A DNA stretch of 24,504 bases from a virus: the IMG/VR virus record IMGVR_UViG_3300012008_000029, positions 1-24,504 of that record; one strand, given 5' to 3'. Below the pieces are notes generated by a model, which was not told where the DNA came from, searched no databases, and saw only the letters and a list, made by a program, of their open reading frames with translations. A program made the translations under genes and the position numbers. Of this stretch, positions 6,079 to 22,741 are shown piece by piece. Within the stretch, counting starts at the first letter, position 1, and every line of letters begins with the position of its first letter.

Positions 6079-6708
6079 ATGGCATCGACGTACCCAACTA
6101 CGCTTGACAGTTTCGCCACGACTCGTGCCGACGGCACGCCGCAGGCGACGACTCACCCGGGCGACCACGACAACGAGAACGACGCGATCAACAAGATTGA
6201 GGCGTTTATAGGACTCGCGGGCGTCTTGCCGGTCTTCGACCTCGTTAAGAAGTACGGTGTCGCGACGAGCGCCACCGCGACGGCGAACGCGGCAGCGATC
6301 CATGCGGCGTTTGCGGACGCTGCCACGATCGGCGGCGGTGTCTACCTACGCGGCAGCGCGTCGTTGTACCCATGTAACCCGTTGACTCTTCCGCGCGCGC
6401 CGATCAGATTCTTCGGCGACGGGCCGACATCGAGCGTTCTCGCCGCAGTCGCCGCCGGGCCAGCTGCGCCGATGCTCTCAGGCGACTCGGTCGGACAACC
6501 AACTTCGGGGCCGTTCACGCCGGTCGGAAGTAGCGCGCAGAATATGTACCAGATGAACCTGGACCGTCATCGACGGTCTCGGGTTCAACGGCTACAACAA
6601 TCAGGTCTCCGGCGTCAAGGGGATCTCGATCGTGAACCAGAGTGGCTTTCACCAGCAGTTCCTGCTCAACCGGCTCGCGGTCTTTGCTACATGGGGCACC
6701 GGGATTGA
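6079..6708 (+). CDS. Beta-helix spike/fibre protein, N-terminal part (frame breaks near 6555-6565)
   Basis: N-terminal part of a virion spike. Residues ~1-50 hold the phage fibre start pattern (YPTTLDSF...THPGDHDNENDAINKIEAFIG). A pectin-lyase-type entry follows: VKKYGVATSATATANAAAIHAAFADA, then GGGVYLRGSASLYP and PIRFFGDGPTSSVL, the usual first rungs of phage tailspikes. After QNMYQMNL the frame becomes Arg-rich nonsense and stops at 6708, while the natural continuation (TVIDGLGFNGYNNQVSGVKGI) is in the +1 frame from about 6563. The gene starts 3 nt after the TatA-like stop with only a weak GAGG site, so coupling is likely. Its place between capsid and neck genes may mean it is attached to the head rather than the tail. 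Confidence 0.8.
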   Translation: MASTYPTTLDSFATTRADGTPQATTHPGDHDNENDAINKIEAFIGLAGVLPVFDLVKKYGVATSATATANAAAIHAAFADAATIGGGVYLRGSASLYPCNPLTLPRAPIRFFGDGPTSSVLAAVAAGPAAPMLSGDSVGQPTSGPFTPVGSSAQNMYQMNLDRHRRSRVQRLQQSGLRRQGDLDREPEWLSPAVPAQPARGLCYMGHRD

Positions 6709-7669
6709 ACTGATCAACTCCGGCAACATCTGGGGCGAACTGATCCAACAGTGCATGGTCTGGAACACCACGGGCAGCGGATACGACCTCGGTTCGGACA
6801 TGATAATCGCCAACTGCCAAGCCGCCAATAACGGCTATGAGGGCTTCCGCTCAATCGGCTATGGCACGAGCCTGCAGATCGACAACTGCAAGTCGTACTC
6901 GAACGGAACCATCACCGCGTCACGAGGCGTCGGCTTCTACTTCGGCTCCAACGGTGCAGGGATCGCCTGCACGAACCTCGACGCCCAGGACAACTTCGCC
7001 GAGGGCGTTGTCGTTGAGGACTCGGGTGCTGGTGAGTCGCATAACATTACAATCAACGGGCTGATCTGCGATAGCAACTCCAGCGCCACCGGAACCTACT
7101 CCGGCCTGCGACTGAGTAGCTGCCACGACGTGCAGGTTAGGGGATACGTCGCGACCGATCGCTACTACGGAAGCGTGACATCTCAGACTCACGCTCTCAA
7201 AGTCACGAACCCCGCCGGGACGAACTACAGCAACTCCGTTCAGCTCGTCCAGAGTCCGACCGACGAAGGGCGCGGGTACCCGACGATGCTCGCCCCGATC
7301 GACCCGGCATCCGACCTGCTAGGGACAGACGTTCAGGTCGGCGCATCTGGTGGCGGTCAGATCGCCGTAACGGTCACGACCGGCGTGGTCGCGGCACTCG
7401 ACCCGTATAAGGGCGCGAACAAGAAGATCCCGGTGGCCGCGAACATCACGACGATACCGGCCCCATCAAACCTCCATCGTGGCTGTCGGATGCGGCTGAC
7501 GTTCACCGCGTCCGGGGCATTCACGGTCGGCGGCTGGAACGCTGTCTACAAGGGCACCGCCAGTCTCCCATCGGGGGCGGGCGCAAACGGCCAGTTCTTC
7601 GTCGCCGAGTTCGAGTGCGACGGCACCAACTGGTACCAGACGAACGGCACCGTGGCCTGGCGCGCGTAA
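6632..7669 (+). CDS. Beta-helix spike/fibre protein, main part in the shifted frame
   Basis: Continuation of the spike; the meaningful sequence starts upstream of the first possible start, at about 6563. It shows repeating beta-helix rungs rich in Asn, Gly and Ser (GIELINSGNIWGELIQQCMVWN, SDMIIANCQAANN, TSLQIDNCKSYSN, HNITINGLICDSN). A linker and a C-terminal domain follow (PYKGANKKIPVAANITTIPAPSN ... GQFFVAEFECDGTNWYQTNG) of the type that ends many phage fibres. Right-handed beta-helix spikes often bind or cleave surface polysaccharide; I see no assignable catalytic residues. No ribosome site lies at GTG 6632, so this is not an independent gene. Joined to the upstream part the protein would be ~529 aa. 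Confidence 0.8.
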   Translation: MNQSGFHQQFLLNRLAVFATWGTGIELINSGNIWGELIQQCMVWNTTGSGYDLGSDMIIANCQAANNGYEGFRSIGYGTSLQIDNCKSYSNGTITASRGVGFYFGSNGAGIACTNLDAQDNFAEGVVVEDSGAGESHNITINGLICDSNSSATGTYSGLRLSSCHDVQVRGYVATDRYYGSVTSQTHALKVTNPAGTNYSNSVQLVQSPTDEGRGYPTMLAPIDPASDLLGTDVQVGASGGGQIAVTVTTGVVAALDPYKGANKKIPVAANITTIPAPSNLHRGCRMRLTFTASGAFTVGGWNAVYKGTASLPSGAGANGQFFVAEFECDGTNWYQTNGTVAWRA

Positions 7670-7848: not shown

Positions 7849-9954
7849 ATGGCCGCTGCTACATTCCGCGCCGCTGGAGCTAAGTCAAACGGCACGACCG
7901 GCGCGGTGACCGTCGCTGCGCCTGCGGGCGTTGCGACCGGTGACCTCGAAGTTCTGATCGCGTCAACGATCGCGGCCGGATCGGTTGCGATCACGACCGC
8001 CGGCGGCTCGGCCTGGACGGCGGTCACTGGTTCCCCCCAGGACGTGGCGAGCGGCGAGAAGCTGTACGTCTGGTATCGCGTGCGCCAGGCGGGGGACGGT
8101 GACCCGATCGTCACCCCGGGCAGCGACCATTCCTGCTCAGCACGGCTCGCCTACACGGCGGGCACCTTCGATAGCACGACGCCGATCGAGATCCCGGCAG
8201 CCAGCTCCGAGACGACATCAGACACATCGTTCTCGTGGGCACCGGGCGGCTCGACCGCGGGTGTGGATAGGCTCGTGCTCTGCGTCGCATCGCAGGGCAC
8301 CGACTCGAACACCGCGTCGATCCCGGTGATGACGGACGCTAGCCTGACGGCGCTTGCCTCGCGCGTCGACTACTGCACGGTCTCAGGCGGGGGCGGCGGC
8401 TTCGGGGCTACGGAAGGGACACGCGCCGCGTCGGGCACGGTTGGCACGTTCGCCTGTACCTACGGCACCGCGTCAACGAAGGCATACATCAGCTTTGCTA
8501 TCCGCCCGCACGTCGCGACGACCTACCAGATCACGGTCGGCCCGATCTCTGCGAGCAACGCGATCGCGGCGAAGCGCAAGGGCAAGACGCGGCTCGCGAT
8601 CGCGACGACGAACGCCGTCATCGTGACGCCGGTCTACCAAGGGCAAACCCCCGGCACCTACGGGTACGGGCTGTACGGCGACGGCACCTATGGCGGCGGT
8701 GCGGCAGGCATGACCTACCCGATCACGGTTTCTCTCACCGCTACGAACACGCTCGCGCTCGTACGCAAGGGCAAGACGCACCCGGTTATCGCGACGACGA
8801 ACGCACTGACGCTCGCGCGCAAGGCGAAGCTCGCCCGCGCTATATCAGGCGCGCATGCGCTCGTGCTTCAGCGCAAGGCGAAGATCGCCCGCGTTATCGC
8901 GAGCGCGAACGCCGTCTCTGCGACGATCAAGAACGTCAAGCGTCTCGCCATCGCCTTCGTCACGACGAACGCCGTCTATCTCGGGCGCAAGGGCAAGACT
9001 CGACTAGTAGTCGCCACGGCGAACGCGGTCTCGTTACGGCGTAAGGCGAAGCTTCGCGCGGTTCTGCCGACGTCGAACGCTGTCGCGCTCGGCCGCAAAG
9101 CGAAGCTCCGCGCCGTGCTGGCGACTACCAACGTCGTCTCAGCGAGGCGCAAGGCGAAACTGCCGCGCCTACTCTCGGCCACGAACACCGTGACGGCGAC
9201 GCTCAAGCGGGTCGCACGGATCGCTATCGCGCTCGCGACCGCGAACACGATCGCCCTGAAACGTAAGGGCAAGATCAACCGGCAGGTTGCGAGTACGAAC
9301 GCTCTAGCGCTAGCACGCAAGACGAGGCTGCCGCGCATCATCGCGACAACGAACACGCTGGCGCTCAAACGCAAAGGCAAGCTCGTCAGTATTATCGCCA
9401 CTGCGAACGTCCTGACGGTTGCGCGCAAGGCGAAGATCCGGCGGGTGCTCGCAACCGCGAACACGCTGACGGTTACGCCGCGCGCCGTGATCGGTGCCGT
9501 CACCTATCACCTATCGGTCGCGCTCGCCACGGCGAACGCAGTCGCGGTGAGGCGGCGCGTACAGATCCGGCGCACAGTTACGACGGCGAACACGCTCGCG
9601 CTCGTACGCAAGGGCAAGACGCGGATCGCGCTCACGAACGCATCGCCGCTCACGGCGCTTAGGCGCACGGGCAAGGTGCGGAGCGCGATCAGTACGGCGC
9701 AGGCGATCACGGCCAGGCGTCGGAGCACGCAACGCGTCGCGGTCGAATCTAGCCAGGCCGTCACTATCCACCGCCGCGGACGCATTCATATCGCGCTCGC
9801 AAGTGCGGCAGGAGTCGTCGCGTCGATCTTCTACCGCGTCAGGCAGATGCGGCTCACGCACCCGTTCGATTCACCGAGGCCGAACCGTGGCCTTGACGCA
9901 CCGCACGCAACCGAGGCAGAACGTCTCGACGTGCCTGATCCTCATAAGGGGTAG
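7849..9954 (+). CDS. 701-aa repetitive basic fibre/adhesin-like protein
   Basis: Two-part protein. Residues 1-~222 form a beta-sandwich-like domain common in actinophage structural proteins (PAGVATGDLEVLIAS, VWYRVRQAGDGDPIV, TAGTFDSTTPIEIPA). From ~224 to ~660 come about 21 degenerate copies of an 18-residue repeat, roughly ATTNALALxRKxKLRRVI. They have a near-invariant Asn, alternating small/hydrophobic residues and a basic RKxK core, so the protein is extremely basic. Longer variant repeats recur about every fifth copy. A Gly-Tyr block (GTYGYGLYGDGTYGGG) interrupts the second repeat. The pattern predicts a beta-solenoid or strand-turn-strand rod. Role in cell-surface (teichoic acid, polysaccharide) or nucleic acid binding is speculation. 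It starts 3 nt after the previous stop and lies just before the neck genes. I recognise no named family for the repeat part. Confidence 0.82.
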   Translation: MAAATFRAAGAKSNGTTGAVTVAAPAGVATGDLEVLIASTIAAGSVAITTAGGSAWTAVTGSPQDVASGEKLYVWYRVRQAGDGDPIVTPGSDHSCSARLAYTAGTFDSTTPIEIPAASSETTSDTSFSWAPGGSTAGVDRLVLCVASQGTDSNTASIPVMTDASLTALASRVDYCTVSGGGGGFGATEGTRAASGTVGTFACTYGTASTKAYISFAIRPHVATTYQITVGPISASNAIAAKRKGKTRLAIATTNAVIVTPVYQGQTPGTYGYGLYGDGTYGGGAAGMTYPITVSLTATNTLALVRKGKTHPVIATTNALTLARKAKLARAISGAHALVLQRKAKIARVIASANAVSATIKNVKRLAIAFVTTNAVYLGRKGKTRLVVATANAVSLRRKAKLRAVLPTSNAVALGRKAKLRAVLATTNVVSARRKAKLPRLLSATNTVTATLKRVARIAIALATANTIALKRKGKINRQVASTNALALARKTRLPRIIATTNTLALKRKGKLVSIIATANVLTVARKAKIRRVLATANTLTVTPRAVIGAVTYHLSVALATANAVAVRRRVQIRRTVTTANTLALVRKGKTRIALTNASPLTALRRTGKVRSAISTAQAITARRRSTQRVAVESSQAVTIHRRGRIHIALASAAGVVASIFYRVRQMRLTHPFDSPRPNRGLDAPHATEAERLDVPDPHKG
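8518..9820 (+). repeat. Tandem degenerate 54-bp (18-codon) repeats inside the fibre gene
   Basis: About 21 protein-level repeats of 18 codons. The best conserved codons encode the Asn of the turn (usually AAC in gcgaacgc or acgaacgc contexts) and the cgcaagg(g/c)gaag core for RKxK. Longer copies (20-25 residues or more) break the register near 8614, 8914, 9180 and 9466, giving a super-period of about five repeats. Divergence between copies is too high for recent slippage. Confidence 0.85.
8519..8550 (+). repeat. 32-bp segment shared with 18180-18211 (copy 1)
   Basis: The 32 bases coding for TTYQITVGPIS in the repeat fibre match 18180-18211 in the minor tail frame with one mismatch. Both copies follow the end of a beta domain. 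Confidence 0.85.
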
Positions 9955-11566: not shown

Positions 11567-12666
11567 TGGCCTACGCATCAGGACTCTCTGCGCAGATCGG
11601 CTACGGCGTCGAATCCGTCTACGGCACGCGCATCGTCCCAACCATCTTCCCCGAGTTCCTGAGCGAGTCGCTCAAGTGCAACGCGGGCAGGATCGAGTCG
11701 AAGGCGCTACGCGCCGGAACGCGCGTGCAGCGCACCGACCGCTGGGCAAAAGGCCCGCGCGACGTCGGCGGCACGACCGTCCACGAGCTGCAGAGCAAGG
11801 GCCTCGGCACGCTGCTGAAGCACGCGCTCGGCGCGAACGCAACATCGCAGCCCGCTGTAGGGACAGACCCGACGGTCTACGAGCACAAGAGCACGCTCGC
11901 GACGCCGACCGGACTCGGGATGACGATCCAGGTCGGACGCCCCGACAACGCGGGCACCGTGCGGCCGTGGGACTACCTCGGCTGCAAGGTCGCGAGCTTC
12001 AAACTCGCGGGCGAGGTCGGCGGCATCCCCACGCTCGAACTGACGTGGTTCGGTACCGACGAGTCCACCGCGCAGACACTCGCGACCGCGGGCTACGCGA
12101 CCGGCCTCGAAGTGCTGAACTGGACGGGCACGACTGTGACGATCGGCGGCACGGCGTACGTCTGCCAGAAGGTAACGGTCACCGGCACCCACGGCATGAA
12201 GACCGATCGCTTCAACCTCGGATCGACGAACCGTTCGGAGCCGATCGCTAACGCGTTCAGCGTCTTCGGCGTCGAGATCGAGTCCGAGTACCTCGACAAC
12301 ACCGCGTACGCGCACATCGCCGCGGGAGACACCGTCGCGATCGTCTCGAAGTTCACCGGCTCGATCATCTCGACCACGTACGCCTACGCGCTCGAAGTCA
12401 CGCTGCCCGCAGTACGCATCGACGGCGAAACGCCGAACGTCGCGGGCACGGATCTCGTCTCGCAGCCGATCAAGGGCACCGCGCTCGACAACAGCGGGGC
12501 CGACGGCGCGGTCAAGATGGTCTACCGCACGACCGACGCGACCGTCTTAAATGGCGGGGCCGCACATCGTACTCGAAGGTGTTCGGGAGTACGAGATGGC
12601 GATGGCTCGCGCGCGACTGAAAATCACGCGCGGGGCCGTCGCCACCGCACTGCGGCCGGTCGTTAG
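11566..12666 (+). CDS. Major tail protein (tube); true end probably 12550
   Basis: Builds the tail tube. N-terminus SAQIGYGVESVYGTRIVPTIFPEFLSESL and the following KALRAGTRVQRTDRW segment are typical of the actinophage tube family. A beta-rich body follows, with a repeated NxSxx/TTLELTWFGTDE-type strand layout. Through residue ~327 (VKMVYRTTDATV) it reads well. The last ~39 codons, from 12548, overlap the next gene by 116 nt and are Arg/Gly-rich like an out-of-frame shadow. Removing one T at 12546-12548 would give a TAA directly before ATG 12551, so the natural product is probably 327 aa. The long version cannot be excluded. Start is the TAATG overlap with the previous stop. Confidence 0.82.
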   Translation: MAYASGLSAQIGYGVESVYGTRIVPTIFPEFLSESLKCNAGRIESKALRAGTRVQRTDRWAKGPRDVGGTTVHELQSKGLGTLLKHALGANATSQPAVGTDPTVYEHKSTLATPTGLGMTIQVGRPDNAGTVRPWDYLGCKVASFKLAGEVGGIPTLELTWFGTDESTAQTLATAGYATGLEVLNWTGTTVTIGGTAYVCQKVTVTGTHGMKTDRFNLGSTNRSEPIANAFSVFGVEIESEYLDNTAYAHIAAGDTVAIVSKFTGSIISTTYAYALEVTLPAVRIDGETPNVAGTDLVSQPIKGTALDNSGADGAVKMVYRTTDATVLNGGAAHRTRRCSGVRDGDGSRATENHARGRRHRTAAGR

Positions 12667-13042
12667 GGACGCGAAGACGAGGGCGAAGGTGATCGCCATC
12701 CAGAAGGGCCTAAGCGACACGGGCAACCTAGTGCGCGGTATCGGATCCTTCGCGCGCGGCAACACGGCGGGCATTACCGAGAAGGCGAACAGGGACGGCT
12801 ATCCCTACCCAGGCATCTACGAGTACGCAGGCTCGACGAGCCGCTCCGACAAGAAGGGCGGCATGTCGGCGATCACGAACCGCTCCACGATCGGGGCGGC
12901 GCTGATCGCAAAGCACGGGCTTGGTAGCGGGACGCACGGCGCGCGAGCCTTCATGCAGCCAGCGATGGACGCCGAGACAGACACGGCGATAATTGCACTT
13001 GACGAGTTGGTCGGCCGTATCTGCGCCGACGCTGAAAGGTGA
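12551..13042 (+). CDS. HK97 gp10-like neck/tail-joining protein
   Basis: The 163-aa product starts with an IVLEGVREYEMAMARARLKI helix entry, then a long basic helix (VVRDAKTRAKVIAIQKGL) and SDTGNLVRGIGSFARGN, matching the gp10-like pattern (helix, then TG.L...I). It has YPGIYEYAGSTSRSDKK before a C-terminal ARAFMQPAMDAETDT motif, the family's usual RPF(L/M)xPA ending. These proteins take part in neck assembly or tail completion. It normally lies before the major tail gene; here it lies after it. No clear ribosome site precedes ATG 12551, which suggests coupling to the major tail stop. Confidence 0.75.
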   Translation: MAGPHIVLEGVREYEMAMARARLKITRGAVATALRPVVRDAKTRAKVIAIQKGLSDTGNLVRGIGSFARGNTAGITEKANRDGYPYPGIYEYAGSTSRSDKKGGMSAITNRSTIGAALIAKHGLGSGTHGARAFMQPAMDAETDTAIIALDELVGRICADAER

Positions 13043-13047
13043 GGCAC

Positions 13048-13410
13048 ATGGCTGAAGAGCCGAAAGTCAAAGAGATCAAGATCACGCTCGACGGGCGCAC
13101 ATACACGATGCAGCCCGGACGTTTCAGCTACCGCGAACTCGGCATCATCCGCGACGTTTCGGGACTCCGCGCAGGCGAGATCGTCGCCGCGGCGAAGGCG
13201 GGAGACGTGATGCTCGTCGTCGCGCTAGCGGCCGTTGCGATGCGTCGAGACGGCACCGAAGTCGATGTGGATAAGCTGCTCGACCGCGACACCACCGAGA
13301 TCGAGATCGAGCTAGTCAAAGAGGATTCCCCGGCGGCAAACCCTCCGGTGGTCGACGACGCCGAGGCCCCGGTGGTAACGCCGGAGCCGATACCGACGCC
13401 GACCCCCTAG
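13048..13410 (+). CDS. Tail assembly chaperone G (short product)
   Basis: I choose ATG 13048, which follows AAAGGTGAGG (13035-13044), over GTG 13039. The 120-aa product is acidic with KEIKITLDGRTYTMQPGRFSYRELGIIRDVSGL at its start and a Pro-rich end (PEPIPTPTP). Position directly before the tape measure, this size, and an overlapping second frame mark it as the G protein. Such chaperones bind the tape measure and recruit tube subunits, and are absent from the virion. The gene ends ACC CCC TAG; a -1 slip on the C run would extend it (next entry). Confidence 0.8.
   Translation: MAEEPKVKEIKITLDGRTYTMQPGRFSYRELGIIRDVSGLRAGEIVAAAKAGDVMLVVALAAVAMRRDGTEVDVDKLLDRDTTEIEIELVKEDSPAANPPVVDDAEAPVVTPEPIPTPTP
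13402..13410 (+). promoter_or_regulatory. Probable programmed -1 frameshift site (C5 run before UAG)
   Basis: The sequence is ACC CCC TAG in the G frame. Five consecutive C (13403-13407) let tRNA-Pro re-pair perfectly one base back. The stop codon in the waiting site should favour slippage. Upstream C-rich places (13327-13331, 13367-13370) fit a -1 slip less well. Confidence 0.6.
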
Positions 13411-13544
13411 ACGCGCGCGCGCGCTGGCACCCGAGCTATCTGACACTCGGGGTTAGACCCTGGGAAATGCCGGACTTCACGCCGGACGAACTGAACGCCC
13501 TAAACGTCTGGATCAAACAGGAGAACGAGAAGCATGGCGCGTAG
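13407..13544 (+). CDS. Tail assembly chaperone T extension, read by -1 frameshift from G
   Basis: In the -1 frame relative to G there is an open stretch with no start codon of its own near its beginning. It reads LDARARWHPSYLTLGVRPWE and then PDFTPDELNALNVWIKQENEKHGA, stopping with TAG at 13542-13544, 11 nt inside the tape measure gene. The W-rich RPWEMPDFTPDELNALNVWI segment is what T domains look like. A slip of the Pro codon CCC (13405-13407) back to 13404-13406, with the UAG next in line, gives a G-T fusion of 165 aa. Frameshift fusion at this locus is a conserved feature of siphophages; the exact slip point is inferred. Confidence 0.75.
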   Translation, partial: LDARARWHPSYLTLGVRPWEMPDFTPDELNALNVWIKQENEKHGA

Positions 13545-15639
13545 CATCGTAGTCAAGTTCGTCGGCGAAACCAGAGACCTTGAGGGTGCTTTCGCTAGGG
13601 CCGAGGGCCGCACTCACGCACTAGGCAAGGCGGTAGGCCTTGCGGGAGTAGCACTCGCTGGCGTTCTCGCCGTCGGCCTCGTGAAGTCTGTCGGGGCGGC
13701 TACCGCGTTCGAGTCATCGATGGAGCAGATTCAGACGCAGACGGGCGGCTCGACCGCCGAGGTCAAGAAGATGTCGGCTGCGCTGCTCGGCATGGCCGCG
13801 AGCGTTGGGAAAACCCCGGAGGAGCTGTCGAAGGGGCTGTACCATGTCGAGTCGGCTGGATTCCGCGGCGCGAAGGCTCTCGACATCCTCAAGCTCGCCG
13901 CCGAGGGCGCGGCGGTTGGACATTCCGACCTTGAGCAGACGACAACGGCGCTCGTCGCGGCTCAACGCTCCGGCATCGCCGGTCTCGGCGATATGTCGCA
14001 CGCGATGGGTTCGCTTAACGCGATCGTCGGCGCGGGCAACATGCGCATGGACGATCTGACCGCGGCGCTCGGCACCGGTGTCCTTCCCGCGGCGAAGGCG
14101 TTTGGGCTGAATATCTCTGACGTAGGCGCGGCGTTGGCAACGATGACGTCAAACGGTATCCCGGCGGTGAACGCGGCCACCGGGTTGCGGATGATGTTCA
14201 TGTCGATGGCGGCTCCAACATCGAAGGCGGCAGGTCTACTGAAAGACGTAGGGCTGTCCTCGACGGATCTTGCCGACACGATCCGCAACAAGGGTCTGTT
14301 CGCCGCGCTGACCGAGCTGAAGACGCACATGGAGACGGCTGGTTTGACGGCGACGGAGCAGGGCGCGCTGCTAGCGGGTGCGTTCGGCCGGAAGTCCTCG
14401 ACCGGGCTGCTCACCTTGATCGGGAACCTGAAAGATATGAAGGTGGCGCAGGATCAAGTCACGACCGGGGCGTCCACGTTCGGCGCGAACTGGGAGGAGA
14501 CGCAGAAGACCGCGGCGTTCGCGAGCGAGAGGCTCCATGCTGCTATCTCGGCGATCGGAGTTGAAATAGGGTCGGCGCTGCTACCGGCAGTCGCCACCGC
14601 CACGACGAAGGTTGCGGACTTCCTGGCCAAGCTCAGCGGCGCGCAAACGTTCCACGCAAAGCTTGTGGTCGTTTGGGAAGGCATCGCTGGCATCACAGCC
14701 AGCATCACGGCCGCGCTCGCGCAAGCATGGAACGGCACGGACGTCGGCACGATCATGTCCCGCAACACATCCGGCGCGGACATGAACAAAGGCATCAAGG
14801 GGATGCTCGACAAGATCGACTGGGCCGCGGTTGGGTCAGGCGTCGCAAAAGACATGGTCTCCGCGATCGGCCGCGGTATCTCGAAGGTGAGCTGGGGGTC
14901 TGTCCTAACTGCGATATCGAAAGCCTACGACGCGATCATCGGCGCGCTCGCGCAGGCGTTCCTGGGTGCGTCCTATGCGCTCGGGCTGGCGATCGAACAC
15001 GGGATCATCAAGGGTGTTTCCGGTCTCAGCTCGGCGATCGGCAGAGAACTCGGCAAGGTCATAGCCGCGATCTCGGGGCTGCCCGGCCGGATCCTGGCCG
15101 CACTCGGCAACCTCGGCAGCCTGCTCTACGGCGCGGGCCGGGCGCTGATCCAGGGGCTAATCGGCGGTATCAAGTCGATGGCGTCGAGTGCCGCGTCCGC
15201 AGCGGCCGACGTCGCGAAGAGTGCCTATCACGCCGTCACCGGCTTCCTCGGCATCCACTCACCGTCAACGCTGTTCCACCAGCTCGGCGTCCTTACGATG
15301 CTCGGCTATATCAACGGCATCAACGACATGGCGCCGAAGGCTCGGGCCGCGATGGGCTTCGTTGCCGCCGATGCTCGCCGCGGCATGGGCGAGGTGATCG
15401 TGACTATCGAGGGTGCCTGGGTGAAGGTCGCTCAGACACTATCGAACGATCACGGTGATGTCGGAGACGGCGAAGGCGCTGGCGTCCGGGATCGGCGTGT
15501 CCGGTTCGGGCGGGCAGTTGGACCAATGGTGGCTCGACCAGGCGGTTCAGAAGTCGTTGGCGGCGAACCCGGACGCGTCCACTGGAGGCGTCGGGCCTGG
15601 GATCGACTGGTCAGGACTACCTGCCGCCACCTACGATAG
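13534..15639 (+). CDS. Tail tape measure protein, main part (frame breaks near 15430-15455)
   Basis: Sets tail length and is threaded through the tube. Residues ~1-40 contain an Ala/Gly/Val-rich helix, and ~50-330 match the phage tape measure core: FESSMEQIQTQTGGSTAEVKKM, GKTPEELSKGLYHVESAGFRG, DLTAALGTGVLPAAKAFGLNISDVGAALATMTSNGIPA and TEQGALLAGAFGRKSSTGLLTL. Hydrophobic stretches follow (WEGIAGITASITAALAQAW; LPGRILAALGNLGSLLYGAGRALIQGLIGGI) and the late IHSPSTLFHQLG motif. After AWVKVAQTLS (~15439) the frame becomes nonsense. With the C-terminal piece it would be ~770 aa, a short tape measure, so a short tail is expected. Its ATG overlaps the end of the T frame. Confidence 0.92.
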   Translation: MARSIVVKFVGETRDLEGAFARAEGRTHALGKAVGLAGVALAGVLAVGLVKSVGAATAFESSMEQIQTQTGGSTAEVKKMSAALLGMAASVGKTPEELSKGLYHVESAGFRGAKALDILKLAAEGAAVGHSDLEQTTTALVAAQRSGIAGLGDMSHAMGSLNAIVGAGNMRMDDLTAALGTGVLPAAKAFGLNISDVGAALATMTSNGIPAVNAATGLRMMFMSMAAPTSKAAGLLKDVGLSSTDLADTIRNKGLFAALTELKTHMETAGLTATEQGALLAGAFGRKSSTGLLTLIGNLKDMKVAQDQVTTGASTFGANWEETQKTAAFASERLHAAISAIGVEIGSALLPAVATATTKVADFLAKLSGAQTFHAKLVVVWEGIAGITASITAALAQAWNGTDVGTIMSRNTSGADMNKGIKGMLDKIDWAAVGSGVAKDMVSAIGRGISKVSWGSVLTAISKAYDAIIGALAQAFLGASYALGLAIEHGIIKGVSGLSSAIGRELGKVIAAISGLPGRILAALGNLGSLLYGAGRALIQGLIGGIKSMASSAASAAADVAKSAYHAVTGFLGIHSPSTLFHQLGVLTMLGYINGINDMAPKARAAMGFVAADARRGMGEVIVTIEGAWVKVAQTLSNDHGDVGDGEGAGVRDRRVRFGRAVGPMVARPGGSEVVGGEPGRVHWRRRAWDRLVRTTCRHLR

Positions 15640-15847
15640 CGGCGGCTGGCTGATGCCAGGGACGACGCTCGCGACGAACGCGACCGGCAGCCCCGAGCGC
15701 GTCATAGCGCCACACGCGGGCGGCAGCCCCTCGATCGAGGTCAACGTCGCCGGTTCCGTCGTGAGCGAACGGCAGCTGATCGAAGTCGTGCGCAGTGCTC
15801 TCTACGAGCTTAAGCGCGCAAACGGCCCGCTCGGCTTCGCCAACTGA
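15455..15847 (+). CDS. Tape measure protein, C-terminal part in the shifted frame
   Basis: This frame carries the usual tape measure ending: AAATYDSGGWLMPGTTLATN-type sequence with SPERVIAPHAG, then a beta/helix end (IEVNVAGSVVSERQLIEVVRSALYELKRAN). There is no ribosome site before GTG 15455 or ATG 15458, so I read it as the tail of the preceding gene after a single extra base somewhere in 15421-15450. An independent small gene is possible but less likely. An alternating-hairpin leader follows the TGA. Confidence 0.8.
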   Translation: MMSETAKALASGIGVSGSGGQLDQWWLDQAVQKSLAANPDASTGGVGPGIDWSGLPAATYDSGGWLMPGTTLATNATGSPERVIAPHAGGSPSIEVNVAGSVVSERQLIEVVRSALYELKRANGPLGFAN

Positions 15848-15861
15848 GCCAACCTAAAAGT

Positions 15862-15918
15862 CGCGGGCCGTACCTCCACCGAAGGGTGCTGGCCCGCGCG
15901 AAACCCTTGGAGGTACGT
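15862..15918 (+). promoter_or_regulatory. Leader with two mutually exclusive hairpins; one hides the ribosome site
   Basis: Hairpin A: 15862-15869 (CGCGGGCC) pairs perfectly with 15891-15898. Hairpin B: GTACCTCC (15870-15877) pairs with GGAGGTAC (15909-15916), and AAGGGT (15882-15887) pairs with ACCCTT (15903-15908), with a 4-nt bulge. Hairpin B buries the GGAGG ribosome site of the next gene (ATG 15919). A and B interleave with no room for both, so they should exclude each other. This looks like a translational switch or an RNA thermosensor-type element. Confidence 0.6.
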
Positions 15919-18357
15919 ATGAGGCGCATCGCGCTGCTGGCCGTCGTCTTCGCGGCGCTGGCGATGGTTGGATTCGGAGCCGGAAGCGGTGACGCGAGGC
16001 TCCTGTGGGATGGGACGATGGGAGCGAACGCTTCCTGGTCGGACACCCGCTCGCATCCGCCGCATCCGCCGCACCCGACTACGACGACGACAACCTCGTC
16101 GACGACTACGACGGCCACCACGACGGCCCCGACGACAACTACCGGCGTGACTACCGCGCCCACGACTACCGCGGCCACCACGACGGCCCCGGTGACTACT
16201 ACCGCGCCCACGACGACGACGGTAGCGACCACCACGACCGCGCCGACTACGACGGCAGCGACGACGACGACGGCCACCACGACGGGAGGCAATATGGCAC
16301 TAGGAACATCACTGCCCGCGCGGCTGCCGTTCTCCTCGGGAGGCAACACGTACTACGTCGACCCGACGTCTGGTGGCGACGACGCGCGCTCGACTACGCA
16401 GGCGCAGGTGCGGACAACGCCGTGGCAGACGATCAACCACGCGCTCGGTGCCGTGCCGCTGAGCGGCTCGGTCATCAAGGTGCTCCCTGGCTCGTACACG
16501 TCGAGCGGGTACTCAAATATCCCGCTCAACTGGACGCGCGCGGGCGACGTCACCAACCCGGTCACGCTGATGGCGGAGACGGCGTTCACGGTCGACATCA
16601 TCGCCGGAACGGCGGGCGGTAACACGTTCGCGACCTGGGTTCACAGCGCGAGCGGGCTGCGCGTCACTGGCTTCAACATCTATGGGAACATTGTCGCCAA
16701 CTCGTCGATCTACGAGACCGCTCTCAACATCGAGGCATCCGACAAGATCGAGTTCAGCGGCAACACCTTCAACCAGATCGGCAGTTGCGCGGTCGGCGTC
16801 AAGGGTGGCCCGGCAGGATCGGGGATCACGTCCGACGACATCTGGATCTACGGCAACATCTTCCGCCCGAGCGGTACAAACCCGTTCGCGCAAGTCACCG
16901 GTCTCAACTTCCCCACCAACACCTACTTCGGCACGAAGGGGTCGCATTGGGTCTATATGGGGATGTGGGGCGGCAACCCGGCATCCGGCTGGAACGAGAA
17001 CAACGGCGCGAATCGCTTCGTCGTCGCCAACAACGTCTTCGTCGGCTCGGCCGCGGGTCGGCACGTCGAGCTTGGCCCGGAGGCCCGCAACGGCTTCGTC
17101 GTCAACAACACCTTCTACGGCAACCACATCTTCCAGTTGCTCGGGACAGGCTACCCGTCGCTCGACGCAACGGCGGAGTGGGCGGGCAGCGGCATGGAGT
17201 TCTTCGCGAACACGAGCCAGACTGCCTTCGCGACCGGTAACAACCAAGTCCATAACAACGTCTTCGTCGACCTCGACGGGCACGGCGCGTACGGCTCCGG
17301 GCCGACCGAGGCTGGCAACTACATCTTCACGAACCTCAGCTACAACCTCCGCAACGGCAGCGGATACCAGGGCGACAGGACGCAGGACTTCCTGGCGACA
17401 GACAGCAGCGGCGGAACGCTGTTCGCGGCTGGCTCGAACATCAAGGGCGACCCGAAGTTCGTCGCCCCCGGGACGTACGACTTCCACCTGCAAACCACAT
17501 CGCCCGCGGCGAGCGCGGCCGATCCAATCTATGCCCCCCCGCTCGACATCGAGGGGAACGCGCGCGACGCTAGCCCGTCGATGGGCGCATACGAGGGCAC
17601 GGGCGGCGGTACCGGCGGCGCACCTGCCGCGGGCACCTATACCCCGCCCGTCGTGGACGGTCGCGCGATGGGCACGGCTAGCGCGACGTATCCGCCCGTG
17701 TCGCCGGGCTACGACAACAGCGGCCCCTCGCTAGACATGATCCGCTGGCTCGATAGCGGACTCTTCGGCCTCTACGTCTCCGTGCTCGGCTTCGACACGT
17801 CGGCGATTCCCGACACCGCGACGATCAACAGCGCCACGTTGCAGCTCTACCTGACATCGAACGAGCACACAGACGGGCGCTATCTCGTCGGCGAGTATTT
17901 CGACTATGGCGCAGGGGTGGACGCTGCCGACTACTCGTCCACCGCGCCGGGATCTCCGATTCTCAGCAAGGCCCAAACCGCGCTGACGACGTCGGCCTAC
18001 AACGATCTCCCGATCAGCGACCTGAGCGGCGTCTCGAAGACCGGCACCACGAAGCTGCGGCTCACGCTCTCGGGCGGACAGCCGACGGGCCGCAACTGGG
18101 TGAGCGCGAACTCGTCGCGCGGCACCTACGCGCCCAAACTTCTTGTCGACTACCACGACGGCGGGTGCTCCGGGGAGCACGACCTACCAGATCACGATCG
18201 GCCCGATCTCTACGGCGACTGCGGTCTCGCGCACGGCGACAAACGTCCCCGTCCAGGCAGCTACCCCGACTCCGACCGTGACGACCAAGATCGCCTTCGC
18301 ATCGCGGCCGGGCGACACGCCGCAGGTCTACACCGACGTCTCGGCCTACACGCGTGA
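15919..18357 (+). CDS. Signal peptide / Thr-rich / beta-helix / DNRLRE-type surface or tail protein
   Basis: Start ATG 15919 follows TTGGAGG. Domains: an export-signal-like N-terminus (MRRIALLAVVFAALAMVGFG, residues 1-20), a His/Pro linker, and a Thr-rich tract (54-122, 46 of 69 Thr). A right-handed beta-helix follows (~135-560: YYVDPTSGGDDARS, PWQTINHAL, VIKVLPGSYTSSG, GLRVTGFNIYGN, NRFVVANNVFVGS, FVVNNTFYGN, ending GDPKFVAPGTYDFHLQ). Last is a DNRLRE-type carbohydrate-binding module (~590-745: DTATINSATLQLYLTSN, TKLRLTLSGG, YAPKLLVDY). After Y745 the frame becomes nonsense to 18357, while a minor tail sequence opens in the next frame, so the two may be one long protein. A second start, ATG 16294 with GGGAGG (16284-16289), would give a virion protein without signal or Thr tract. 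A signal peptide on a tail protein is odd; host-surface modification is an alternative role. Confidence 0.8.
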   Translation: MRRIALLAVVFAALAMVGFGAGSGDARLLWDGTMGANASWSDTRSHPPHPPHPTTTTTTSSTTTTATTTAPTTTTGVTTAPTTTAATTTAPVTTTAPTTTTVATTTTAPTTTAATTTTATTTGGNMALGTSLPARLPFSSGGNTYYVDPTSGGDDARSTTQAQVRTTPWQTINHALGAVPLSGSVIKVLPGSYTSSGYSNIPLNWTRAGDVTNPVTLMAETAFTVDIIAGTAGGNTFATWVHSASGLRVTGFNIYGNIVANSSIYETALNIEASDKIEFSGNTFNQIGSCAVGVKGGPAGSGITSDDIWIYGNIFRPSGTNPFAQVTGLNFPTNTYFGTKGSHWVYMGMWGGNPASGWNENNGANRFVVANNVFVGSAAGRHVELGPEARNGFVVNNTFYGNHIFQLLGTGYPSLDATAEWAGSGMEFFANTSQTAFATGNNQVHNNVFVDLDGHGAYGSGPTEAGNYIFTNLSYNLRNGSGYQGDRTQDFLATDSSGGTLFAAGSNIKGDPKFVAPGTYDFHLQTTSPAASAADPIYAPPLDIEGNARDASPSMGAYEGTGGGTGGAPAAGTYTPPVVDGRAMGTASATYPPVSPGYDNSGPSLDMIRWLDSGLFGLYVSVLGFDTSAIPDTATINSATLQLYLTSNEHTDGRYLVGEYFDYGAGVDAADYSSTAPGSPILSKAQTALTTSAYNDLPISDLSGVSKTGTTKLRLTLSGGQPTGRNWVSANSSRGTYAPKLLVDYHDGGCSGEHDLPDHDRPDLYGDCGLAHGDKRPRPGSYPDSDRDDQDRLRIAAGRHAAGLHRRLGLHA
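16078..16284 (+). repeat. Threonine-rich low-complexity tract (ACG/ACC/ACT codons)
   Basis: 69 codons, 46 of them Thr, in runs of two to six separated by Ala-Pro, Ala-Ala, Gly-Val or Val-Ala. It resembles the extended, often glycosylated stalks of actinobacterial exported proteins. The repetitive acgacgacg DNA is slippage-prone, so its length may vary between relatives. Confidence 0.9.
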
Positions 18358-19450
18358 GGCGCACGTTGCACAGTCGCGGCAGTACGAACTCGACCGGATG
18401 GAGTCCGCGGAGTGGTCAGGCCTCTTCGATAACTCGGATCGGCGCTTCGACCCGGCCTATGCCGGATCCCCGTATTCGCCGAACCTGAAGCGCGGGCGGC
18501 GCGTCCAGCAGACGATTACGGTGTCCGGCAGCACCTACTATCTGTTCACGGGCGAGATCGACGACTGGCCGATCGAGTGGCAGATGCCGGATTACTCGCA
18601 GGTGACGCTCAAGGCATTCGACTTCGGCGAGGCATTCCAAAACGACGCCTATACGGGCAGCGTGCCGGAGGAGTTGAGCGGCGCACGTATCAACCGCCTG
18701 CTCGACGACTGGGGCTGGCCCGCTGCCGATCGCGAGATCGACGCCGGGCAGGCAACGATCGCGGCGGCGCAGCTCGACGGCGTTACCTACATGCAGCACG
18801 CGCAGGATGTCGCCATGAGCGAGGTGGGCCTGTTCTTCTTCGACGGGCGAGGCTTCGCGGTCTTCCATGATCGTGTCCGGCGGCTTACCGCGCCATACAC
18901 GACTCCGCGGCTGACCTTCGGGGACGGCGAGGGCGAGGTGCCCTATGAGGACTGCAAAATCCGCAACGATCGCGCGCTGCTCAAGAACCATTGGGAAGTC
19001 ACCGCGACGGGCGGCGTGACGCAGGTCGCAGAGGACGCAACCTCGATCCTGGACAATAGGGTCAGGCGGGAGACGCGCAGCGTGATCGTGTCGAGCGACC
19101 CGCAGGCGCTCGCGCTCGCGCAGGCGCTCGTGATCCGGTTTGCGGATCCACCCCCGCGCTTCGAGATGATCGAGATCAACCCGGTCGCGGTCGCAGAGAG
19201 CTACCCCGGCCTATGGCGCGCGCTGTTCGAGCTGAACGTCTCCGACCGCGTCCGCGTCAAGAAGACGCCGCCCGGCGGCGGTGGCCCGTGGGCGTACGAC
19301 TGCAACATCGAGGGACGGCAGATCGACATCGGGCCAGGAAACGCCCTGATCATCCGCTTCATCCTCTCGCCTGCCGACACCGTCGGCTACTGGATGCTCG
19401 AAGTACCGGGGCATTCCGAACTCGACTCAACGACCGTATTGGGGTACTGA
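18143..19450 (+). CDS. Minor tail protein (possibly the C-terminal part of the preceding gene)
   Basis: Open frame from TTG 18143 with no ribosome site. Recognisable sequence begins about 18167 with PGSTTYQITIGPIS, a segment shared with the repeat fibre. After a Pro/Thr linker comes the actinophage minor tail pattern: VYTDVSAYTREAHVAQSRQYELDRMESAEW, LFDNSDRRFDPAYAGSPYSPNLKRGRRV, YYLFTGEIDDWPIEW and TLKAFDFGEAFQ. A later domain starts with LLDDWGWP and AGQATIAAAQ and ends with VRVKKTPPGG...YDCNIEGRQIDIG. This type of protein lies at the tail tip after the tape measure and links to receptor-binding parts. Either the true start is hidden or, more likely, it is fused to the DNRLRE protein and one base is inserted near 18150-18175. 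The next gene starts 1 nt after the TGA. Confidence 0.82.
   Translation: MSTTTTAGAPGSTTYQITIGPISTATAVSRTATNVPVQAATPTPTVTTKIAFASRPGDTPQVYTDVSAYTREAHVAQSRQYELDRMESAEWSGLFDNSDRRFDPAYAGSPYSPNLKRGRRVQQTITVSGSTYYLFTGEIDDWPIEWQMPDYSQVTLKAFDFGEAFQNDAYTGSVPEELSGARINRLLDDWGWPAADREIDAGQATIAAAQLDGVTYMQHAQDVAMSEVGLFFFDGRGFAVFHDRVRRLTAPYTTPRLTFGDGEGEVPYEDCKIRNDRALLKNHWEVTATGGVTQVAEDATSILDNRVRRETRSVIVSSDPQALALAQALVIRFADPPPRFEMIEINPVAVAESYPGLWRALFELNVSDRVRVKKTPPGGGGPWAYDCNIEGRQIDIGPGNALIIRFILSPADTVGYWMLEVPGHSELDSTTVLGY
18180..18211 (+). repeat. 32-bp segment shared with 8519-8550 (copy 2)
   Basis: Second copy, coding TTYQITIGPIS at the start of the minor tail frame. The single difference (G to A) changes Val to Ile. 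The match ends where the 18-residue repeats begin in copy 1, so it suggests exchange of linker modules between fibre genes. Confidence 0.85.
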
Positions 19451-21778: not shown

Positions 21779-22696
21779 TTGAGTAAGACCCTCGACGGCC
21801 GTACACCGGCCGACGTACAGGCGTACGTCAACGAGCGCGGCTCGCTCGCCACCGCGTGGCCCGAGTACGCCGTGACGCGCAACGAGTTCCGCGCATTCTG
21901 CAAGGAGCACGGCATCCGCGTACGGAAGGAGATCCCCGAGGCGGTCTTCTCGCCGATGCGTATCCTCGCGATCGACATCGAGACGGCTCCTTCGCTCGCC
22001 TACATCTGGCGCATGTATGACGAGAACATCGGCGTCGACCAGCTCGTCAAGGCGTCCGAGATGATCTCGTGGGGCGCGAAGTGGCTCGGCGACGACGAGG
22101 TCGAGTTCCGCTCGGAGTTCCACGACGGCAAGCGTAAGATGGTGAAGCGCGTCTGGGAGCTACTCGACGAGGCAGACGTCGTGCTGCACTTCAACGGTCG
22201 GCGCTTCGACGTGCCGCACCTTCAGCGCGAGTTCCTTGAGATGAAGCTCCTGCCTCCGTCTCCGTACAAACAGATCGACCTGTACGCGACGGTGAAGCGG
22301 CAGTTTCGCTTCCAGTCGAATAAGCTCGCGCACGTCTCGAAGCAGCTCGGGTTCGCGGGCAAGGTCGAGCACGAGGGGTTCCCGCTCTGGCTCAAATGCA
22401 TGGCGGGAGACGAAGACGCCTGGGCGCGCATGTGCGACTACAACAGACAGGACGTCGTACTGCTCGAAGAGATGTACGACAGGCTGCGCCCGTGGATCGT
22501 CTCGCATCCGAGTGTCGGCGCGTTCCTCGGCGAAGACGTCTGCCCGAAGTGCGGCAGCCGTAAGCTCGTCGAGAGTGGCGTCGCCTTCATGAGCACCACG
22601 TCTTACCGGCGGTTCCGTTGCGGATCGTGCGGCTCCTGGTCGCGCTCGACGAAGCGCCTGGAGCGGACGACGGTCGCTCAGATCCCCAACTCCTAA
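21779..22696 (+). CDS. DEDDy 3'-5' exonuclease (DnaQ-like/RNase H-like) with zinc ribbon
   Basis: TTG start at 21779, 6 nt after AGGAGG (21767-21772); no ATG or GTG fits better. The 305-aa product has a ~60-residue N-terminal segment, then the exonuclease core. Motif I is ILAIDIETAP (D66, E68), motif II is VLHFNGRRFDVPHL (D144), and motif III is DYNRQDVVLLEE (Y221 xxx D225), giving a DEDDy set of metal ligands. A C-terminal four-Cys zinc ribbon follows (C255, C258, C281, C284; CPKCG and CGSCG). The enzyme would degrade ss/dsDNA or RNA 3'-5', for repair, recombination or host nucleotide scavenging. It is the last gene before a strong terminator, oddly attached to the lysis genes instead of a replication module. 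Confidence 0.88.
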   Translation: MSKTLDGRTPADVQAYVNERGSLATAWPEYAVTRNEFRAFCKEHGIRVRKEIPEAVFSPMRILAIDIETAPSLAYIWRMYDENIGVDQLVKASEMISWGAKWLGDDEVEFRSEFHDGKRKMVKRVWELLDEADVVLHFNGRRFDVPHLQREFLEMKLLPPSPYKQIDLYATVKRQFRFQSNKLAHVSKQLGFAGKVEHEGFPLWLKCMAGDEDAWARMCDYNRQDVVLLEEMYDRLRPWIVSHPSVGAFLGEDVCPKCGSRKLVESGVAFMSTTSYRRFRCGSCGSWSRSTKRLERTTVAQIPNS

Positions 22697-22703
22697 CGAA
22701 GAT

Positions 22704-22741
22704 GAAAACGCCCTCTATCCTTCGGGACAGAGGGCGTTTTC
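22704..22741 (+). terminator. Strong bidirectional intrinsic terminator
   Basis: GAAAACGCCCTCT (22704-22716) pairs with AGAGGGCGTTTTC (22729-22741), extended inside past one A/C mismatch by TCC/GGA to a C(TTCG)G tetraloop. A-run and T-run flank the stem, so it works on both strands. It lies between the exonuclease stop (+) and the stop of the - strand membrane gene, ending both converging transcripts. Confidence 0.93.

Follow-up and report, generated by a model that had tools for sequence, protein, structure and literature searches.

The tape-measure and tail genes of an unclassified phage pose a question of translational control. In the 24504-nt IMG/VR virus record analysed here over its whole length (the window; GC 65%), the tail gene starts 71 nt beyond the tape-measure stop codon, and the Shine–Dalgarno (SD) sequence from which it would be translated is complementary to the leader that precedes it. 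A preliminary description of the locus saw in this leader two interleaved, mutually exclusive hairpins with the layout of a translational switch, possibly responsive to temperature or to translation of the tape measure. The question is whether the leader ties the tail gene to its upstream neighbour, and by what means.

The tape-measure gene and its downstream neighbour

PHROG matches reveal a siphovirus gene order in the window: terminase, portal, protease, HK97-type capsid, tail tube and tape measure. The tape-measure gene (13534–15847, plus strand) is split between an ORF at 13534–15639 and a second one at 15455–15847 in another frame. Both match PHROG tail length tape measure entries, and together with the C-terminal relatives and the reading frames this points to one gene with a single apparent indel near 15440–15455. 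Its stop codon is the TGA at 15845–15847 (plus strand). Beyond this codon the frame stays open as far as a TGA at 15920–15922, which overlaps the downstream ATG at 15919 as ATGA. Since 15847 lies close to the usual C-terminus in many relatives of the fibre set described below (SGPVFASA*), we judged the open frame to be due to chance and set readthrough of the tape-measure stop aside.

Single apparent indels recur at about one per 5 kb, affecting the terminase, a fibre, the end of the tail tube, the tape measure and the beta-helix/fibre genes (regions 1600–1800, 6560–6760, 12480–12600, 15380–15520 and 18040–18230). Interruptions this frequent suggest that sequencing or assembly introduced errors or that the phage has decayed; the leader itself may therefore contain errors. 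Elsewhere in the window, a perfect inverted repeat (22704–22741; arms of at least 11 nt) lies directly 3′ of an exonuclease-like ORF ending at 22696 and is perhaps a terminator.

The downstream gene (15919–18357, plus strand) has a hydrophobic N-terminus that we read as signal-peptide-like, a Thr-rich linker, and weak NCBIfam matches to choice-of-anchor Q and DNRLRE (E 4.1e-4 and 1.7e-5, respectively, both under the curated cut-off). Around position 18140 the frame switches to that of a conserved tail-fibre part (18143–19450, plus strand; phrog_5313, E 3.4e-33; tblastn, E 2e-24), a homologue of the putative tail fibre of Pontimonas phage phiPsal1. This frame handover suggests one long protein with an indel, and the two ORFs probably represent a single interrupted protein of which 18143–19450 is the C-terminal part. 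A Thr-rich/beta-helix N-terminus appears to be an acquisition of this fibre and would have carried its start to the present distance from the end of the tape-measure gene. For a virion protein, it is odd that this apparent fibre fusion opens with a signal-peptide-like stretch and a Thr-rich linker. The motif YQIT(V/I)GPIS, with a repeat-like stretch after it, is found both in the ORF at 7849–9954, where it leads into many similar repeats, and at 18143–18250 in the ORF of the conserved fibre part.

Scans of IMG/VR and of genomes yielded no relative close enough for the leader to be aligned: neither the genome scans nor single-protein IMG/VR scans with the tape measure, the beta-helix gene and the capsid confirmed a close relative, and capsid identity was at most 37% among the matches listed from IMG/VR and at most 31% among those listed from the phage collection. 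Two pattern searches of IMG/VR returned one match each, an unrelated AT-rich contig for the DNA pattern over the SD and, for the SD-stem pattern, a contig region that in our reading resembles tRNA genes; both were discarded. Distant kin were recovered by alignment scans of IMG/VR (26 fibre loci, at least 80 capsid loci and 44 tape-measure loci). Pontimonas phage phiPsal1 has a similar gene order, with its homologue of 18143–19450 directly after the tape measure and the stop and start codons overlapping.

The junction between the tape measure and the next gene was compared across these relatives. The fibre set, made up of the 26 loci and phiPsal1, contains one locus that starts inside the gene and is unreadable (L032); in all 26 readable junctions the stop and start overlap, by 1 nt in 25 and by 4 nt in one (L034). 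Three of the 44 loci in the tape-measure set run off the contig, and 40 of the 41 readable junctions overlap (1 nt in 35, 4 nt in five), the last one having a gap of +3 (L127). As one contig appears in both sets (as L119 and L034), the two together comprise 66 distinct contigs, of which 65 show an overlap of 1 or 4 nt, a tally of sequences with near-identical contigs unmerged and not of independent events. A leader of tens of nucleotides is found in none of the 66, and the window, where the stop ends at 15847 and the start is at 15919, is the exception. The consistency of the overlap suggests that relatives as a rule probably couple the two genes, and that the usual means of doing so, the stop–start arrangement of termination–reinitiation, has been lost in the window. 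A spacing of +71 nt exceeds the roughly 20 nt that reportedly suffice to suppress reinitiation almost completely (PMC10666635).

Two predicted hairpins at one ribosome-binding site

The SD of the 15919 gene is a GGAGG at 15909–15913 (plus strand), 5 nt 5′ of the ATG. An inverted-repeat search bore out the arms given in the preliminary description. Hairpin H1 (15862–15898, plus strand) has a perfect 8-nt core, CGCGGGCC at 15862–15869 and GGCCCGCG at 15891–15898, while hairpin H2 (15869–15917, plus strand) consists of 10 perfect pairs between CGTACCTCCA at 15869–15878 and TGGAGGTACG at 15908–15917, spanning the SD, to which a forced H2 fold adds an inner extension (15883–15887/15903–15907). The claim that H2 buries the ribosome site of the signal-peptide/Thr-rich gene stands as a prediction: the SD is paired in the predicted fold, which is the sequestering structure that coupling by RNA unfolding calls for. 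Mutual exclusion needed correction. No base is shared between the H1 core arms and those first drawn for H2 (15870–15877/15909–15916), which on paper makes them compatible with a pseudoknot; the two hairpins become mutually exclusive only upon folding, once H1 has extended to 14 pairs (15862–15875/15884–15898) and occupies 15870–15875 of the H2 arm.

Folding with ViennaRNA predicted both states, in keeping with the switch layout proposed earlier. H1 is favoured in 15848–15935 (−36.6 versus −34.9 for H2) and H2 in 15800–15960 (−65.8 versus −64.4 for H1), a gap of 1–2 kcal/mol in either case. Which state prevails varies with the fragment ends: for a 3′ end of 15960, H1 and H2 are predicted at 0.11 and 0.88 when the 5′ end is at 15800, and at 0.88 and 0.11 when it is at 15832. 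Shifting the 5′ end from 15824 to 15828 is enough to flip H2 at 0.98 to H1 at 0.91.

H2 is unusual; the H1 arms by themselves are not. A complement of at least 10 nt covering the SD arose in five of 5000 dinucleotide shuffles of 15848–15904. By local energy, no shuffle out of 500 was as stable as H2 (15866–15920; z −3.17) and four of 500 were as stable as H1 (15858–15902; z −3.28). The number of perfect 8-nt inverted repeats in the whole window (57) is close to that in shuffles (44.0 ± 8.7), which makes the H1 arms alone ordinary. The stretch 15830–15940, whose folding had been proposed as a check, is unremarkable overall (z −0.96; 33 of 200 shuffles), in contrast to the local hairpins within it, and 131 of the contig's 1630 65-nt segments match or exceed the leader in folding stability.

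We also surveyed how often SD-type starts carry a complement of this length. Among the 15 such starts in the window, the one at 15919 is the only one with at least 10 nt, and indeed the only one to exceed 5 nt. Across phage loci with a GC content of at least 0.60, a complement of at least 10 nt was found at two of 533 SD-type starts and one of at least 8 nt at nine, compared with at least 10 nt at 0 of 171 starts at GC 0.45–0.60 and 0 of 44 at lower GC, in a census of automatically picked ORFs of at least 100 aa on both strands that includes some starts that are not genes and excludes L001, L002 and L115. Control GGAGG sites anywhere in the same GC-rich loci have a complement of at least 10 nt in six of 1271 cases, so buried SDs of this type are not enriched at starts. 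Hairpins of the CCTCCCCC/GGGGGAGG type lie over the SD of an ORF start in the GC-rich phage loci L061 (3211), L105 (8187), L076 (3078) and L042 (8082).

Predicted response to ribosomes and to temperature

A further element, absent from the preliminary description, emerged from the inverted-repeat search and a masking scan. Region 1 (ACGGCCCGC; 15822–15830, plus strand) comprises the tape-measure codons for the C-terminal N-G-P-L and is complementary over 9 nt to 15863–15871. The masking scan combined four energy sets with eight fragments (32 conditions), and a change of at least 0.2 at the SD was scored as opening. Masks of 9 nt starting at 15817, 15821, 15825 and 15829 opened the SD in 18, 23, 22 and 14 of the 32 conditions, respectively, and the remaining fifteen in just 0–3. 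Masks of 30 nt at 15812–15836 did so in 24–27 conditions and the remaining eight in 0–4. A mask over 15830–15859, which approximates a ribosome on the stop codon, opened the SD in none of the 32. Given where the 30-nt masks act, opening of the SD would be a brief event confined to the reading of the last approximately 10 tape-measure codons, although a slightly larger ribosome footprint could give a different outcome. The earlier suggestion that ribosomes finishing the tape measure act as they approach the first arm of H1 is not what the scan predicts, but dependence on tape-measure translation is plausible by way of 15822–15830.

This predicted response is sensitive to fragment ends. With the Turner 2004 energies, a 3′ end at 15980 and 5′ ends of 15750–15815, H2 persists at 0.93–0.99 even when region 1 is masked; with Langdon 2018, the switch is kept in some of the fragments ending at 15980 and lost in others. 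In the fragment 15780–15945, the SD is already open without a mask. Leader shuffles (n = 400) gave an equal or larger change in 2% of cases and a strict switch in 0.25%, and the cost of opening the SD is ordinary, 35% of leader shuffles being as high. When the last 21 tape-measure codons were redrawn synonymously (n = 150), 51 draws held a complement of at least 9 nt to 15862–15880, 14 passed the strict switch test and two gave a change at least as large. GC-rich codons for N-G-P often create region 1, which therefore speaks only weakly for selection and might have arisen incidentally through GC-rich coding.

Temperature, the other trigger proposed earlier, fared poorly. Known thermosensors hold the SD in a hairpin, as H2 would, and warming of such an element would free it. 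In 15800–15960, H2 is predicted at just 0.27 at 10°C, 0.88 at 37°C, 0.92 at 50°C and 0.89 at 60°C; it is lower at 10–20°C than between 37 and 60°C, where the mean unpaired value of the SD stays at 0.04–0.05. Release of the SD within physiological warming is not predicted, and an RNA thermosensor at this site is scarcely credible.

Coupling by RNA unfolding and its rivals

The overlap in relatives, taken with the displacement of the start by 71 nt here, makes coupling through RNA structure our best reading, if a tentative one: the 71-nt leader would couple the translation of the two genes by RNA unfolding. When the last stretch of the tape-measure gene is free of ribosomes, 15822–15830 would pair with 15863–15871 and block H1, leaving 15869–15878 free to pair with the SD and hide it in H2. 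A ribosome on the last approximately 10 codons would cover 15822–15830 and let H1 form, H1 would take up the partner of the SD, and a new ribosome could start at ATG 15919. The tail gene would then probably be translated only while ribosomes finish the tape-measure gene, an established type of control at a new location. An SD opened while the end of the tape measure is read would restore coupling, and the tail protein would stay tied to tape-measure translation after the added N-terminus had parted the overlapping stop and start. Both the effect on translation and its selective reason are what we infer from these predictions. Alternatively, the spacer may have been acquired together with the N-terminus and do no more than fold. 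A more elaborate form of the coupling reading, in which a three-part sensor of ribosome position (15822–15830, 15863–15878 and 15884–15917) spans the gene border and replaced the stop–start overlap, preserving the ratio of tape measure to fibre, is in our view distinctly doubtful.

The E. coli rpmI–rplT pair involves RNA pairing and control by L20, and belongs to a ribosomal-protein operon, unlike the window, for which the folds are predicted only. It resembles the window in having a start tens of nucleotides past the stop (+52 nt) and an inhibitory SD structure that upstream ribosomes can undo (PMC12548453). That 2025 review describes the SD of the second gene as commonly structured in coupled pairs, and RNA unfolding as likelier where the spacing lets both ribosomes sit, as in MS2 coat/lysis and rpmI–rplT, with f1 VII/IX as further support (PMC12548453). 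In phage f1 VII/IX and MS2 coat/lysis, as proposed here, RNA structure keeps the start inaccessible until the preceding gene is translated; these are other phage types, with spacings of −4 and −50 nt, and in them coupling has been demonstrated experimentally (PMC12548453). Hairpins described in T4-type phages hide the SD of late or homing-endonuclease genes (I-TevI, segB, mobE, soc, e, 25 and 26), which recalls the buried SD of a late or added gene in the window (PMC2988022). For I-TevI and the like, shorter transcripts from late promoters free the SD (PMC2988022), whereas a promoter scan gave no site here.

Two serious rivals stand against coupling by RNA unfolding. H2, or a related fold, might be a static translational brake that always lowers initiation at 15919 and does not respond to upstream ribosomes. 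The fragments in which H2 dominates regardless of masking (3′ end 15980, Turner 2004) would fit such a brake, as would the buried SDs at other GC-rich phage starts; a mask over region 1 alone nevertheless opens the SD in most conditions, and the two genes overlap in relatives, so we think it somewhat unlikely. The other rival is chance, a short GC-rich spacer folding strongly around arms that have no function. The arms were chosen after the fact in DNA of high GC content, many other segments fold equally well, the H1 arms are ordinary, synonymous draws commonly produce a complement to region 1, and long complements are as frequent at control GGAGG sites as at starts. Against this, the SD complement is rare in shuffles, each hairpin has a z of about −3.2, and 15919 stands alone among the SD-type starts of the window, which leads us to regard pure chance as rather unlikely.

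Other roles for the leader fit less well. H1, a strong 14-pair hairpin directly after the stop codon, might act on the transcript as a 3′-end, processing or attenuation hairpin, its overlap with the SD region being incidental. However, it is not followed by a U-run (the sequence 3′ of 15898 is CGAAACCC), a terminator scan of 13000–19000 on both strands returned nothing at H1, and neither the promoter scan nor Rfam lends support; we rejected an intrinsic terminator or attenuator on these grounds and consider a transcript role improbable. At the gathering score Rfam gave 0 matches in the window, and so no known riboswitch or leader, which also counts against a pseudoknot in which both core stems jointly enclose the SD, with a ligand or protein as a possible partner. 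The lack of shared bases would permit such a fold, but with 0 nt between the 5′ arms it would be sterically tight, and we hold it to be very improbable. A tRNA was excluded.

The original observation of two hairpins is confirmed with a correction, and its interpretation as a switch is partly supported. Were coupling through the leader not to hold, the locus would be just another GC-rich hairpin covering a ribosome-binding site. If it does hold, it would represent a natural swap from overlap coupling to RNA-unfolding coupling at one conserved phage gene border, allowing the two coupling models to be compared within one module, and would suggest that the ratio of tape measure to fibre matters enough to be kept.
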